Part shown: positions 39,014-64,000 of the stretch, one piece after another
How the letters are laid out: every line of letters begins with the position of its first letter
Numbering within the stretch: position 1 is the stretch's first letter
DNA from: Streptomyces sp. NBC_01116
GTDB taxonomy: Bacteria > Actinomycetota > Actinomycetes > Streptomycetales > Streptomycetaceae
NCBI RefSeq assembly: GCF_041435495.1
Contig: NZ_CP108644.1
Coordinates: forward strand, 2,852,001-2,916,000
DNA: 64,000 bases
Direction of reading: 5' to 3'
Position numbers and translations under genes: made by a program
Notes under the pieces: model-generated
Seen by the model: the letters and a program-made list of their open reading frames with translations, nothing else
Databases searched by the model: none
Told to the model about the DNA's origin: nothing

Positions 39014-39052
39014 GTCGACACCTGGCCGCTCCGGCGGCCGCCCCAGCCCGTC

Positions 39053-39200
39053 GGGGGCCGCCCACGCCCGTCCGGCGGTTGCCGCAGCCGTCCGGCGGCC
39101 GTCCCAGCCCGTCCGGCGGCCATACCGACCTGTGGGGGGCCGCCCACGCCCGTCCGGCGGTTGCCGCAGCCGTCCGGCGGCCATCCCAGCCCGTCCGGCG
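39053..39200. repeat. Direct repeat, two 66-bp copies 82 bp apart
   Basis: Copies at 39053-39118 and 39135-39200 differ at one base (39101 against 39183). Each contains several CCGTCCGGCGG blocks. Confidence 0.9.
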
Positions 39201-39320
39201 TTTGAGGACGGAACCGGCAAGCACGTTCCAGGGTGCTGATCAGGGCCTCCCGCGCCACGGACCCGCGGAGAGCACGCCCACCGGACGAAGGGTTCCGTCC
39301 TCAAGCGCCGGACGGGCTTG
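39187..39320. repeat. Inverted pair of dispersed element (CCCGTCCGGCGYTTGAGGAC)
   Basis: A plus-orientation copy at about 39187-39214 and a minus-orientation copy at 39292-39320 read as CAAGCCCGTCCGGCGCTTGAGG in reverse with one difference in the core. The pair can form a long hairpin between convergent genes. The same element recurs at 62256-62284. It is familiar from many Streptomyces intergenic regions. Confidence 0.85.
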
Positions 39321-39350
39321 GGTGGGCCGGGTCCCGGCGGACCGATGCCG

Positions 39351-46012: not shown

Positions 46013-46708
46013 ATGAGCGCATGGCCGAAAGACGAAACGACCCTGCAGACCGGTGCCGCCCCGCACCACGGCGTCGACATCTTCGCCCTGCTGCGGGACC
46101 AGTCCGGACCCCAGGCCGCACAGGTCACGGCGGCCGGCGCCGCCTGGCTGGCAGGGGCCGCCCCCTACCCGCGCAGCACGCTCGCCCACTGGGAGGAGCG
46201 TCCCAAGGCCCCCGGTGTGCTGCCCTGCGGTTCCGCCTTCGACGTCGTGAACGTGCCGGCGCTGTTCGGGCGGCGGATGCTGGAGCAGCTCTGGGCGGAG
46301 GGGCCCGGCTCCGGCCCGGTCGCCACGCACCGGGGCCGGATGCTGCTGTTCGCCGCCCCGGGAACGGCCCAGCGGCTGCCCTCGCTGCTCGCCTGGGAGG
46401 AGTGGGGAACCAGCGGTTCCGGGGGCGCCGGAGACTCCGGGAAGCGGCGCGGCACGGTGCCGCCGCTGCTCTGCCACGGCACCGGCGACGCCGTGACCGT
46501 ACCGCCGCTGACCTGCGCGTCGTCCGAGAGCGGGCCACGCTGGGTGGTCGCCCCCGACACCCGTAATCCGTGGCTCCCGGGCCCCGATGTGCTGCTCTGG
46601 GCGTGTGTGCGGGTGAGCCGGTCCGCGTCCTGTCCGGGTGCCGCGCAGGCGATTTTTCCTCGGGCGGATCAGGGTGCTAATGTCTACGACGTCACCAGGC
46701 GCCGTTAG
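46013..46708 (+). CDS. Degenerate Prim-Pol-like protein overlapping tRNA-Lys
   Basis: 231 residues. The N-terminal part (LLRDQSGPQAAQVTAAGAAW, STLAHWEERPKAPGVLP) and the core FDVVNVPALFGRRMLEQLW and GPVATHRGRMLLFAAPGTA fit a Streptomyces family commonly annotated as bifunctional primase/polymerase, but the acidic catalytic pair of an active Prim-Pol is not visible. It shares this core with the 145-residue protein at 36869. The stop codon (46706-46708) lies inside the tRNA-Lys gene, so the two overlap by 10 bp. No helicase or plasmid gene is nearby. Confidence 0.65.
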   Translation: MSAWPKDETTLQTGAAPHHGVDIFALLRDQSGPQAAQVTAAGAAWLAGAAPYPRSTLAHWEERPKAPGVLPCGSAFDVVNVPALFGRRMLEQLWAEGPGSGPVATHRGRMLLFAAPGTAQRLPSLLAWEEWGTSGSGGAGDSGKRRGTVPPLLCHGTGDAVTVPPLTCASSESGPRWVVAPDTRNPWLPGPDVLLWACVRVSRSASCPGAAQAIFPRADQGANVYDVTRRR

Positions 46709-46772
46709 CTCAGTTGGTTAGAGCAGCTGACTCTTAATCAGCGGGTCCGGGGTTCGAGTCCCTGACGGCGCA
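46699..46772 (+). tRNA. tRNA-Lys (CTT), copy 1
   Basis: The acceptor GCGCCGT pairs with ACGGCGC and the discriminator is A. D arm AGCTCAGTTGGTTAGAGC, anticodon loop ACTCTTAAT with CTT, T arm GGGGTTCGAGTCCC. CCA is not encoded. It is identical to the gene at 58210, and its first bases overlap the end of the preceding coding region. Confidence 0.96.
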
Positions 46773-46778
46773 CAGACG

Positions 46779-58209: not shown

Positions 58210-58283
58210 GCGCCGTTAGCTCAGTTGGTTAGAGCAGCTGACTCTTAATCAGCGGGTCCGGGGTTCGAGTCCCTGACGGCGCA
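58210..58283 (+). tRNA. tRNA-Lys (CTT), copy 2
   Basis: Identical base for base to the gene at 46699-46772, including the acceptor, CTT anticodon and T arm. A TATTAT sequence at 58190-58195, 15 bp before the tRNA, is a likely -10 box. CCA is not encoded. Confidence 0.96.
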
Positions 58284-58290
58284 CGACACG

Positions 58291-60846: not shown

Positions 60847-63363
60847 TCAGGCCCCGTCTCCTCCTCCGCTGCGACCGGTGTAGAAGGCGACCGTCAAGTC
60901 CTTGACGAGCGCTTTGCGTTCGTAGTCGTCGAGCTCGACGATGCCGCGCGTGGTGAGCCGGTTGACCGTGTCGTCCACCGCGTCCACGACGGAGGTGAGC
61001 ACGCTGTCCCGGTGCCTGGAGTCGATCGCGGCGATCCGCCGCCGCTGCATCGCCGCCGCGACCTCGGGGGCGTATTCGATGCCGGTCGGCTGGGCCGAGT
61101 ACACCTCCACGCCCACGGGTTCGCAGTCCGCCTTCAGCATGCGGGTCAGCGCGTCGCCGACCGCCTCGGCGTCGCGCAGGCTCGGGGCGTCCTCGTGGAA
61201 CGCGTCGGCGGGCAGTTGGGAGAGGACCCGGGCCATCGCGGCCTCGACCTGTGCGCTCAGGTACGCCTCGTGGTCCTCGATGCCGAGGACCGCCCGGACC
61301 GTGTCCTTGATCCGCCACACCACGAGGACGACCACGCGCAGCGCGGTGCCGTTCGCGTCGACGGCGGGCAGCGGCTCGCTGCGCCAGTGCCGCAGCCGTA
61401 CGTCGACGCGGCGGCGCAGCAGCAGGGGCGAGACCCAGACGAGACCGGTGCGCCGGACGCTGCCCCGGTAGTCGCCGAAGAGCGTCAGCACCCACGCGTA
61501 CCCGACCTTCCCCCGGCCGAGGCCGCCGAGTGCGAGCAGCACCACGGTGGTGAGGAGGGCGAGCAGGGCCCAGGCGCCGAAGCCGATGCCGAGGTCGGCC
61601 CGGGGGGCGAGGCCGACGGCCGTCTGCCAGGCGGCGGGCAGCACGCCGCGCCACCACAGGACGGCCAGCGCGCCGGCGATTCCGGCCGCGCCGACGAGGA
61701 GGGCCGCGGAGCCGGGCAGGGCGGGTCCGGGGCGTTCGGCGAGGCGCGGGTCGGCGGGAGGGGCGGGCCGGGTCGACGGCTCGACCCGGGTCCGCGGCGA
61801 ACGCGGCACGGGGGGCCGCCGGGTGGCGGGCGAGCGGTCCCCGGTGGCGGGCCGGCGGACGAGGGCCGCGGGCAGGCCGGCCGCCGTGCCCGGTTCGGCC
61901 GGCTCCTGGTCGTCGCGGAAGAGGAGGTGTACGGGGATGGAGGCGGTGGTCTCGTTGGCGATGACGGAGTGGCGGCGACCGGGGTACGGGGGCTTCTCCG
62001 TGGCCGGAGCGGGTGTCGTGGCGGCGGTCGGGGCCGCGGGTACGGGTGCGGGTACGGAGAACGTGGCGGAGGCGGTCCGACCGCCGGGGGCCAGGTCCAG
62101 GACGAGGTCCAGCTCGGTGTCGGGCCCGGGGTCGTCCACGGGTCCCCTGGCGGGGGCACCCTGGGTCCCGCGTCCGACCGGGCCCGTCCGGGCGGGCCTC
62201 TTCCCGCCCTCGGGCTCAGCCCCGTAGGAAGGGTGCGGGGTCCACTCCGCCGAGGGTTCCGTCCTCAAACGCCGGACGGGCTTGAGGTAAAGGTTCCCGT
62301 CGAGGGGCACAGGGTGCGCGGGCGCGGGGCGGCCGGGGGCGGCGGCGGGGGTAGGAGCCGAGGCCGGGGTCGGGGTCGGACGGTCGGGGTGCCGGTCCGG
62401 GGTGGGCCGGTCCGAAGCCGGGCGGTCCGGGGTGGGCCGGTCCAGGGTGGGCCGGTCCGAGGTGGGCCGGTCCGAAGCCGGGCGGTCCGAAGCCGGGCGG
62501 TCCGGGGTGGGCCGGTCCGTGGCCGGGCAGTCCGGGGTGGGCCGGTCCGACGTCGGCCTGTCCGGAGCAGGCCGGTCCGTGGCCGAGCAGTCCGAAGCCG
62601 AGCGGTCCGTGGCCAGCCGGTCCGAAGCGGCCCCGTCCGTGTGCCGGTCCGATGTCGGACGGTCCGGGGTGGGCCGATCCGGAGCAGCCCCATTCCGGTG
62701 CCGGTCCGGAGCCGAGCGGTCCGGAGCGGCTCCATCCGTGTGCCGGTCCGACGTCGGACGGTCCGGGGTGGGCCGGTCCGGAGCAGCTCCATCCCGGTGC
62801 CGGTCCGGGGGCGGGCCGAGGTGCAGGCTCGCGCTCGGGGGTTCCGCGGACGTCCGGGGCGGCGTGGGCGGGGTCCTGTCCGTATCCGGCGGCGGGGGCT
62901 TGTCCCCGACGGGACGGAAGAGCGGCGGCGGAAGCCTGTCGCCCGACGGCAGAACACCGCCACCCTCCGACGGCGGCGGAAGCTCGCCGTCCGGTGGCAG
63001 GACGCTGTCGCCCTCCGACAGCGGGGTGCTGCCACCGGCCGTCGGGGCCGCGCCCCCGCCCACCCGGCCGAACAGCGGCGGCGGAAGCTCGCCCGCCGGT
63101 GACCGGGAGTCCCCAGCCGCGCGGTCGGACGGCGGAGGCGGCAGCCCGGCGTCCAGGCGCTGCGGAGGGCCGGCCTCCGGCGTCGGGGCCCTGCCGTCGG
63201 CGGAACCGAAGAGCGGAGGCGGGCTCCCTTCGCCCGGCGGGGCGAAGAGGGACGGCGGGAGCTGGTCGTCCAGAGGGTGAGGGGTTGAGGTGGGGGTGGT
63301 CCGGGGGGTCTGGTCGTCGTTGGGGGTCACCGGTTGCCGATTCCTTTCCGTCACGTCCGTCAC
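60847..63363 (-). CDS. SPFH/Band 7 membrane protein with long Pro-rich N-terminal region
   Basis: 838 residues from a GTG at 63363, overlapping the upstream gene by 4 bp (GTGA). Residues 1-180 are Pro-rich (repeated LPPPLF-like blocks). About 188-328 is a low-complexity tract built from a five-residue D-R-P-T/S-x repeat. Two membrane segments lie near 545-570 and 590-615. The SPFH domain follows (about 620-830, RRRVDVRLRHWRSEPLPAVDANGTALRV, VLSQLPADAFHEDAP). SPFH proteins organise membrane microdomains. A dispersed DNA element is embedded in the frame near residues 360-370 (LKPVRRLRTEP). Confidence 0.85.
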   Translation of the reverse strand: MTDVTERNRQPVTPNDDQTPRTTPTSTPHPLDDQLPPSLFAPPGEGSPPPLFGSADGRAPTPEAGPPQRLDAGLPPPPSDRAAGDSRSPAGELPPPLFGRVGGGAAPTAGGSTPLSEGDSVLPPDGELPPPSEGGGVLPSGDRLPPPLFRPVGDKPPPPDTDRTPPTPPRTSAEPPSASLHLGPPPDRHRDGAAPDRPTPDRPTSDRHTDGAAPDRSAPDRHRNGAAPDRPTPDRPTSDRHTDGAASDRLATDRSASDCSATDRPAPDRPTSDRPTPDCPATDRPTPDRPASDRPASDRPTSDRPTLDRPTPDRPASDRPTPDRHPDRPTPTPASAPTPAAAPGRPAPAHPVPLDGNLYLKPVRRLRTEPSAEWTPHPSYGAEPEGGKRPARTGPVGRGTQGAPARGPVDDPGPDTELDLVLDLAPGGRTASATFSVPAPVPAAPTAATTPAPATEKPPYPGRRHSVIANETTASIPVHLLFRDDQEPAEPGTAAGLPAALVRRPATGDRSPATRRPPVPRSPRTRVEPSTRPAPPADPRLAERPGPALPGSAALLVGAAGIAGALAVLWWRGVLPAAWQTAVGLAPRADLGIGFGAWALLALLTTVVLLALGGLGRGKVGYAWVLTLFGDYRGSVRRTGLVWVSPLLLRRRVDVRLRHWRSEPLPAVDANGTALRVVVLVVWRIKDTVRAVLGIEDHEAYLSAQVEAAMARVLSQLPADAFHEDAPSLRDAEAVGDALTRMLKADCEPVGVEVYSAQPTGIEYAPEVAAAMQRRRIAAIDSRHRDSVLTSVVDAVDDTVNRLTTRGIVELDDYERKALVKDLTVAFYTGRSGGGDGA
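62256..62284 (-). repeat. Dispersed element copy inside the SPFH gene
   Basis: The same sequence as the element at 39292-39320 with one difference in the core (CTCAAACGCCGG against CTCAAGCGCCGG). It is translated in frame as the peptide KPVRRLRTEP. Confidence 0.88.
62380..62800. repeat. 15-bp-period repeat tract inside the SPFH gene
   Basis: About 28 imperfect units related to GGTGGGCCGGTCCGA encode the five-residue repeat of the N-terminal region. Units vary by a few bases, and higher-order pairs of units recur. Confidence 0.85.
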
Positions 63364-64000
63364 GCGAAGAGCCGGCGCCAGGTCTCCGGCCCCGGATAAC
63401 CGTCGGCCGCACCGCCGCGCCAGCCCTGGGCCCGCTGGAACGCCTCGACGTTGCGGCGGTCGGCCTCGGTCCAGCGCGGGTCGGGGCCCGACACGTAGTG
63501 CCTGCCGTATCCCTTCTTCACCAACTGTTCGCCGAGCCGGTCGACATGGCTGTTGGACTGACCCGGCTGGAAATGGCCGCGTCCGGGGAACGCGGCGGCT
63601 GTATCAGGGCTGCCGCCCGCGCCGGCGGCCGGAATGTTCCGTCCGCCGCCGGTCGCCAGCAGGCGCCAGGTGTCCGGGCCCGGAATGCCGTCGGCCTCCT
63701 TGCCCTGCCAGCCCTGCGCCTGCTGGAACGCCTGGGTCGCACGCCGGTCGGCCGCGCTCCACTCGGGCCCGGGGCCGACCGCGTAGAAGCGCTTGCCGCC
63801 CCGCTGGACCAGCATCCGGCCGAGCTGGGTGACGTGCTTGTTGTCGCTGCCGGGGCCGAACTGCCCGGCCCCGGGGAAGGCGATGGAGGATCCGGAGCCG
63901 GGCGAACCTTCTGTGACCCCTTTGTACCGGTAGGCCACATAGAGGTCGGAGTTGTTCCAGTACGCCAGGGGCGTCGACTGCTTCCGCGTCTGCGGGCGCG
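63360..64000 (-). CDS. Peptidoglycan-binding protein, C-terminal part (truncated by window edge)
   Basis: The reading frame continues past the right edge (residues before GTG 63938 read in frame as AYWNNSDLYVAYRYKG), so only the last 213 residues are visible. They contain two similar peptidoglycan-binding-like units of about 80 residues, each with FPGxGxFxPGxxNxHVxxLG, GPxPxWxxADRR, AFQxAQGWxG and ADGxPGPxTWRxL. Proteins of this type usually carry an N-terminal hydrolase or amidase domain, which cannot be seen here. The stop overlaps the SPFH start by 4 bp, so the two are co-translated. Confidence 0.85.
   Translation of the reverse strand, partial: RPQTRKQSTPLAYWNNSDLYVAYRYKGVTEGSPGSGSSIAFPGAGQFGPGSDNKHVTQLGRMLVQRGGKRFYAVGPGPEWSAADRRATQAFQQAQGWQGKEADGIPGPDTWRLLATGGGRNIPAAGAGGSPDTAAAFPGRGHFQPGQSNSHVDRLGEQLVKKGYGRHYVSGPDPRWTEADRRNVEAFQRAQGWRGGAADGYPGPETWRRLFA

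Follow-up and report, generated by a model that had tools for sequence, protein, structure and literature searches.

A dispersed hairpin repeat of Streptomyces and its relatives, probably REP-like, and its likely in-frame insertion into the linker of an SPFH protein gene

Palindromic repeats that code for protein are best known from Rickettsia. The Rickettsia palindromic elements (RPE), as presented in PMC10969869, are about 150 bp long and often lie in genes. Repeats of the REP, BIME and REPIN kind are described in the main text of PMC3733652, which does not contain the word Streptomyces, as palindromes of 20-40 nt that occur many times per genome, often as inverted dimers, with a copy number that varies among species, and that favour convergent and unidirectional gene gaps and sometimes lie inside ORFs. 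For S. clavuligerus, PMC8269248 describes many structured transcript 3' ends without a U-rich tract. The element reported here resembles the REP/BIME/REPIN repeats in its size, palindromic form, many copies per genome, frequent inverted dimers and variable copy number; the RPE in that a palindromic repeat appears in frame in unrelated genes (here SPFH, polyketide synthase (PKS), LivHM-LivF-like and CobB-like ORFs); and the S. clavuligerus structures in its apparent position as a hairpin at transcript 3' ends. It differs from the RPE in its length of 30 nt (approximately 80-90 nt in the PKS composite), its location mostly outside genes and its unrelated host group, and from the 3'-end hairpins as described in PMC8269248 in its constant loop sequence and its dispersed, near-identical copies. 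A literature text search for the literal core in six spellings, covering mostly work outside subscription journals, returned no match, and no published description of the element was found by title or abstract, although an earlier one may exist in subscription journals. The kind of event is already known from REP and Rickettsia palindromes in ORFs; the element, the host group, the tree-placed insertion and the PKS copies appear to be new. The explanation as a whole, in which Streptomyces and its relatives share a REP-like hairpin repeat and one copy of it inserted in frame into an SPFH linker, is considered probable.

The stretch of DNA analysed (the window) comprises 64,000 nt of Streptomyces sp. 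NBC_01116 (contig NZ_CP108644.1, positions 2,852,001 to 2,916,000). The 21-mer CCCGTCCGGCGNTTGAGGACG occurs in it without mismatch at 39190-39210 on the plus strand and at 39296-39316 and 62260-62280 on the minus strand, against a mean of 0.04 and a largest count of 1 in 100 shuffles of the window. Two of these copies are intergenic and form the left (39181-39215, plus strand) and right (39291-39325, minus strand) arms of an inverted pair, which are 35 nt long, 91% complementary and 75 nt apart, and which differ at the variable loop base (T/C). An earlier reading of the window made from its sequence only had described this pair near 39 kb and a third copy, and all three lie far beyond the 0.04 matches expected by chance. 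It had also proposed a genome-wide count and map, which reveals a dispersed element: the exact 17-nt core GTCCGGCGNTTGAGGAC is present 29 times in the own genome, with none for a reversed-pattern control, and 64 sites lie within three mismatches of the 21-mer, with 2 for the control. A degenerate tandem array with a step of approximately 41 bp, built of the half-element GCCCGTCCGGCG without TTGAGGAC, occupies 39025-39188 on the plus strand, and the own genome has further tandem arrays, built of whole or half elements, at C1:2209391-2209535 and C1:3121062-3121142, the steps of the three being approximately 41, 31 and 30 nt. Elsewhere in the window, two tRNA-Lys(CTT) genes (46699-46773 and 58210-58284) lie 11.5 kb apart, the second being identical with its flank over 84 nt (100%) in G138, G370 and G005.

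The core of the element is a stem of 4 bp or longer that encloses a constant loop of 9 nt, GGCGNTTGA, and is usually flanked on one side by AGCCC. The element is present as single copies, as tandem copies and as inverted pairs. The stem arms around the loop are GTCC/GGAC or CTCC/GGAG and rarely CGCC/GGCG, GCCC/GGGC or GGCC/GGCC. In 167 copies from G002, G051, G084, G092 and G095, collected with the outer pair left unspecified in the search, this pair switches between G-C and C-G and is Watson-Crick in 162, compared with a mean of 106 and a maximum of 123 in 10,000 shuffles of the partners, a comparison that overstates the covariation because GTCC and CTCC copies are sub-families whose kinship inflates it. 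Both sub-families were present in G092, in G095 and in one further set of loci. Broken or weakened stems comprised four GTCC/GGGC in one set and two each of GTCC/GGGC, GTCC/GGAG and GTCC/GGGG in a second, and single off-pair stems included one CTCC/GGAC and one ATCC/GGAC. In folding predictions the advantage over shuffles was moderate for a single element (z -1.7) and absent for a 76-nt one-sided composite based on L106 (z -0.6), with values of z -12.1 for the 46-nt consensus of a close inverted pair and z -9.3 for the pair in the window (39181-39325). Many copies in G051 are inverted pairs with spacers of 14-37 nt and further hairpins flanking both sides; loci L383-L402 of this genome hold multi-hairpin composites of approximate two-fold symmetry, centred on inverted pairs at gene ends, in which the sequences of the side hairpins vary and the pairing, judged by eye, is kept. 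Searches against Rfam returned no match up to E 0.1 for 12 own-genome loci, and for 12 other loci, at the gathering score, three matches that did not overlap the core copies listed.

Across the genus, 69 of 101 genomes surveyed contain the element, with 0-298 copies each (median 4) and a total of 2122, compared with 1 for the reversed pattern. In named genomes it was found in at least 119 stretches, and the 80 loci among the matches listed belong to Streptomyces (73), Embleya (3), Actinacidiphila (2), Streptantibioticus (1) and a Planctomycetota bin (1), the copy in the last (L146) being without the AGCCC flank. The four named genera belong to one family. Nine plasmid records matched a 30-nt query (five Streptomyces, two Embleya and two Rhizobium), and the best places in the seven Streptomyces and Embleya records have no annotated gene. 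Carriage by phages was considered and rejected: the 17-mer occurs in 22 viral contigs, but the AGCCC flank accompanies it in only one (L090), and these look like chance matches. Density within G051 is uneven, with 26 copies in 120 kb at 2.015-2.135 Mb (L383-L388) and no copies in 200 kb at 4.0-4.1 and 4.5-4.6 Mb (L403-L412). An apparent strand polarity in the same genome, with more than 30 plus-strand copies in a row at 2.0-3.0 Mb, was discarded when a rescan of the DNA found minus-strand copies between them. The intergenic locus L281-L284 had no match among the own-genome loci compared.

Relative to genes predicted by a codon model, rather than taken from annotation, 315 copies in six sets comprised 131 in convergent gaps, 136 in tandem gaps and 11 in divergent gaps; a further 15 fell inside called genes and 22 at the edges of loci. 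Copies with an identical neighbourhood were merged in this count, such that 12 PKS copies enter as 10; the own SPFH copy is scored as tandem, the gene caller having shortened that gene; and L294, a transporter gene match without the AGCCC flank that was taken as chance, remains among the 11 in-gene counts of G095. Divergent gaps account for 13-29% of the intergenic sequence at these loci and hold 11 of the 278 classified intergenic copies; they hold none of those in the own genome (0/29), G092 (0/39), G095 (0/37) or the G051 stretches (0/62), where their share of the intergenic sequence is 13-28%. The tandem gaps of the 80 listed loci from named genomes show no strand preference (26 copies on the same strand, 25 opposite), which speaks against a one-way terminator, and no long T-run was found in the 20 nt after the 29 own copies, the longest being 4 T, with at most 2 in 27 of the 29. 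Position and covariation slightly favour a role of the element in RNA, as a hairpin at the 3' ends of transcripts; outside genes, such a hairpin would serve as a pause, a terminator or a block to exonucleases.

The third copy in the window lies inside the gene of an SPFH/Band-7 protein (60847-63363, minus strand), an ORF of 838 aa with a long low-complexity N-terminal linker and a Pfam Band_7 match at residues 620-780 (E 5.6e-23). It is a single element on the minus strand, in frame with the ORF (63363 down to 60847), and its ten codons, from 62283 down to 62254, read KPVRRLRTEP, the hairpin core GTCC-GGCGTTTGA-GGAC occupying 62261-62277 on the same strand. The earlier claim that the element occurs once inside this gene and codes for this peptide agrees with the in-frame codons and the Band_7 domain; its place and peptide stand, while its length of 29 bp does not, the translated unit being 30 nt (62254-62283). 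Compared with the consensus of the own genome, the sole departure among the 30 nt is the first base (A for C), and all 30 consensus nucleotides are present in the copy of G056 (CAGCCCGTCCGGCGTTTGAGGACGGAACCC). The stretch 62238-62286 (minus strand) has a 90-93% match to an intergenic copy elsewhere in G138, G226, G370 and G005, the matches spanning the query from position 25, 26 or 29 to 73. A likeness of the SAEWTP codons to the intergenic copy was discarded as evidence, since G099 has the SAEWTP part without the element. Next to the element, 62284-62814 encodes approximately 177 residues, mostly DRPTPDRPTSDR-type repeats, between SLHLG (residue 179) and the element (residue 361), in place of which the G005 protein has 10 residues.

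SPFH homologues were fetched by a DNA query, and the 57 genomes with SPFH DNA were compared for the presence of a 21-residue stretch, KPVRRLRTEPSAEWTPHPSYG, in any frame and with up to eight changes. The peptide is carried by nine (G000, G138, G370, G149, G310, G226, G150, G005 and G056, the SPFH gene of the last being split over contigs) and absent in 48, an absence that is less certain in distant homologues, some of whose loci end within the linker, than in G099, which has a complete linker. In a Band-7 protein tree of 18 rows the nine carriers form one clade (94/90, just under the star mark) with G099 as its sister, and with seven carriers in a tree of 16 rows the carrier clade has support of 95/88. 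The G099 linker reads GGAP-SAADWTPLPAYG, that is, the flanking peptide without the element, and at this GGAP site the carriers read [KQ]PVRRxRTEP-S[AG][ED]WTPxPxYG. The simplest account would be that ten codons were gained once, immediately ahead of a motif already present; a gain before the G099 split with a loss in G099 costs one step more. An in-frame insertion of an element copy in the ancestor of the nine sampled genomes is thus supported by the phylogeny and very probable; the copy would have entered the linker with the reading frame running through it, its 30 nt amounting to ten codons and its frame being open. A visual comparison of the junction with G099 revealed no target-site duplication. 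The sequence-only reading had anticipated an insertion into this linker without loss of frame, with which the single carrier clade and its element-free sister are in accordance; homologues without the element, which it had proposed to look for, are found in 48 of the 57 genomes, G099 included, and the opposite outcome that it had named, the peptide in distant homologues encoded by unrelated DNA, was not seen, the peptide being absent outside the clade.

Following its insertion, the peptide has changed little among the nine carriers. Eight of the ten residues are invariant, the first being K in seven carriers and Q in G005 and G056, and the sixth L in four, S in four and A in one. In five of the nine carriers the loop has lost its TTGA through changes at the sixth codon, which indicates that conservation does not concern the hairpin element itself. 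In G150, the most diverged carrier, which is nested among the others (weak fork, 83/88), 4 of 30 nt differ from the window copy, two of them synonymously, and KPVRRARTEP is retained. Replacements in seven carriers are equally rare in the ten codons (21/210 pair-codons) and in the Band-7 part (711/7340), and the linker around the ten codons is full of indels. The synonymous rate in seven of the nine carriers is low in the ten codons (18/189, compared with 1258/6629 in the domain) but not unusual, 41 of 324 domain windows being as low, and the idea of constraint on the copy at the DNA level was accordingly set aside. There is mild evidence, from these comparisons of sequence, that the peptide may be useful or at least constrained.

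Copies in frame also lie within other genes, G095 having 12 copies in seven stretches in long type I PKS ORFs (L307-L313, G095:C6, 3.09-3.20 Mb), in those checked beside the KR structural domain. Pfam matches in three of the seven stretches comprise DH, KR, the SpnB-type Rossmann (KR structural) domain and a carrier protein. Aligned with a solved PKS (8g7w_A), L309 has its insert splitting the alignment, which jumps from query 495/chain 363 to query 564/chain 373 and so implies approximately 60 extra residues. The PKS inserts match intergenic copies of G095 (among the matches listed, L309/L303 with 91.6% over 83 nt and L310/L303 with 88.1% over 84 nt), and their frame, ARPAFED, differs from the SPFH frame, PVRRLRTE. 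The neighbours of the copies are alike in several modules, and the copies apparently multiplied with module duplication. An LivHM-LivF-like fusion (L122) has the element in the linker at residue 753, between permease (8-292) and ATPase (804-942) parts, and a CobB-like protein (L326), for which no solved structure was found, has a copy read antisense in the linker at residue 252, between CbiA (5-190) and GATase_3 (273-455); L162 and L364 have in-frame copies in C-terminal tails. The element has a stop in only one of its six reading frames, the sense frame PSGN*; with the other five open, copies within genes would be tolerated in, and become, loops and linkers. In the gene at L161 878-1592, which looks like DUF2752, an N-terminal extension contains one copy in sense orientation and a stretch resembling an inverted copy; this extension is probably a wrong start. 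As a tentative generalization, which is possible but not favoured, hairpin repeats would be a recurring source of protein segments in Streptomyces, kept in linkers and loops, multiplying with PKS modules and lengthening the KR structural subdomain by approximately 60 residues.

Two alternatives concern the SPFH copy itself. Codon statistics are poor across the N-terminal 400 codons, because of which a codon-usage gene caller starts the SPFH gene at 62139, and it could be supposed that the true start lies downstream, that the stretch is untranslated and that the copy is an ordinary intergenic one. This is very improbable given that the frame is open for 838 codons, that the start overlaps by four bases the stop of the upstream gene (63360-63938, minus strand, with a peptidoglycan-binding domain), that the N-terminus, VTERNRQPVTPND in the window, has relatives in G005 (MTERKREPVTPDQN), G099 (LTERNREPVNPDQN) and G056 (MTERNREPVTPDQN), and that the neighbours of the element, LDGN (in seven of the eight carriers compared) and PSYG, are kept with synonymous changes; overlap, related N-termini and conserved flanks together support the start of the long, 838-codon ORF. 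The peptide could instead be an old protein motif that came to resemble the intergenic element by convergence or chance, as might be argued from the peptide and SAEWTPxPxYG being conserved together as a block while the linker varies; G099 has the second half of this block without the first. Such a coincidence is scarcely credible against an agreement of 29 of 30 nt with the element consensus (30 of 30 in G056), where 0.04 core matches are expected by chance, against the occurrence of the element in 69 of 101 genomes, with the linker query matching only 53 of 392, and against the absence of the peptide from 48 of the 57 genomes with SPFH DNA. In-frame insertion of an element copy into the linker is the preferred reading.

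Two further alternatives concern the nature of the element. It may be mainly a terminator or insulator that arose and was kept by selection at gene ends and is not mobile, in accordance with its strong 3'-end placement and the symmetric multi-hairpin composites at gene ends in G051; this is rather unlikely, as the in-frame copies amid PKS modules and in the CobB-like and SPFH genes would have had to be inserted or copied there, and as copy number ranges from 0 to 298 within one genus. In a wide sense the element is REP-like, being a short palindrome with many copies, extragenic and downstream of genes, and its inverted pairs, with spacers of 14-37 nt in G051 and 75 nt at 39 kb, may correspond to a REPIN-type arrangement, the SPFH copy being single. 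Membership of the REP/REPIN class in the strict sense, with mobilization by a RAYT (Y1 tyrosine transposase), would fit its size, short-spacer inverted pairs, convergent and tandem placement and in-gene copies, all as reported for REPs in the main text of PMC3733652, and the somewhat higher copy number of Y1 carriers (median 18 with the transposase, 3 without; p 0.014, a value that ignores kinship and genome size). This is nevertheless improbable. The unpaired GTAG tag of the GTAG superfamily is absent, the flanks being AGCCC and GGAACC or variable, and the GTC of the CGTC tag is paired with GAC in the stem instead of being unpaired; the predicted stem is 4-6 bp and the loop 9 nt, compared with 8-9 bp and 4-5 nt in CGTC families according to the same text, and the loop is constant while the stem changes, unlike in REPs. 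Further, no RAYT was seen beside the element: among 20 Y1 loci of approximately 3.3 kb each, drawn from 29 genomes with a PF01797 match, none had an element-like site (up to two mismatches) within approximately 1.5 kb of the transposase, and the two richest genomes, G002 (298 copies) and G051 (246), had no PF01797 match. A dedicated Y1/RAYT is thus unlikely, and no partner transposon with MITE-type terminal repeats was found. The weak association with Y1 makes help in trans possible, and for the REP-like repeat preferred here the likelihood of spread in trans is evenly poised; non-autonomous spread would depend on an enzyme supplied in trans or on copying linked to replication, and not on a dedicated neighbouring Y1/RAYT.

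These observations suggest that repeat DNA may become protein sequence in large GC-rich genomes, the same outcome as in Rickettsia, and would make the element a system for testing how noncoding repeats turn into protein. As an apparently common 3'-end element of Streptomyces, it is also relevant to genome annotation and to PKS engineering.
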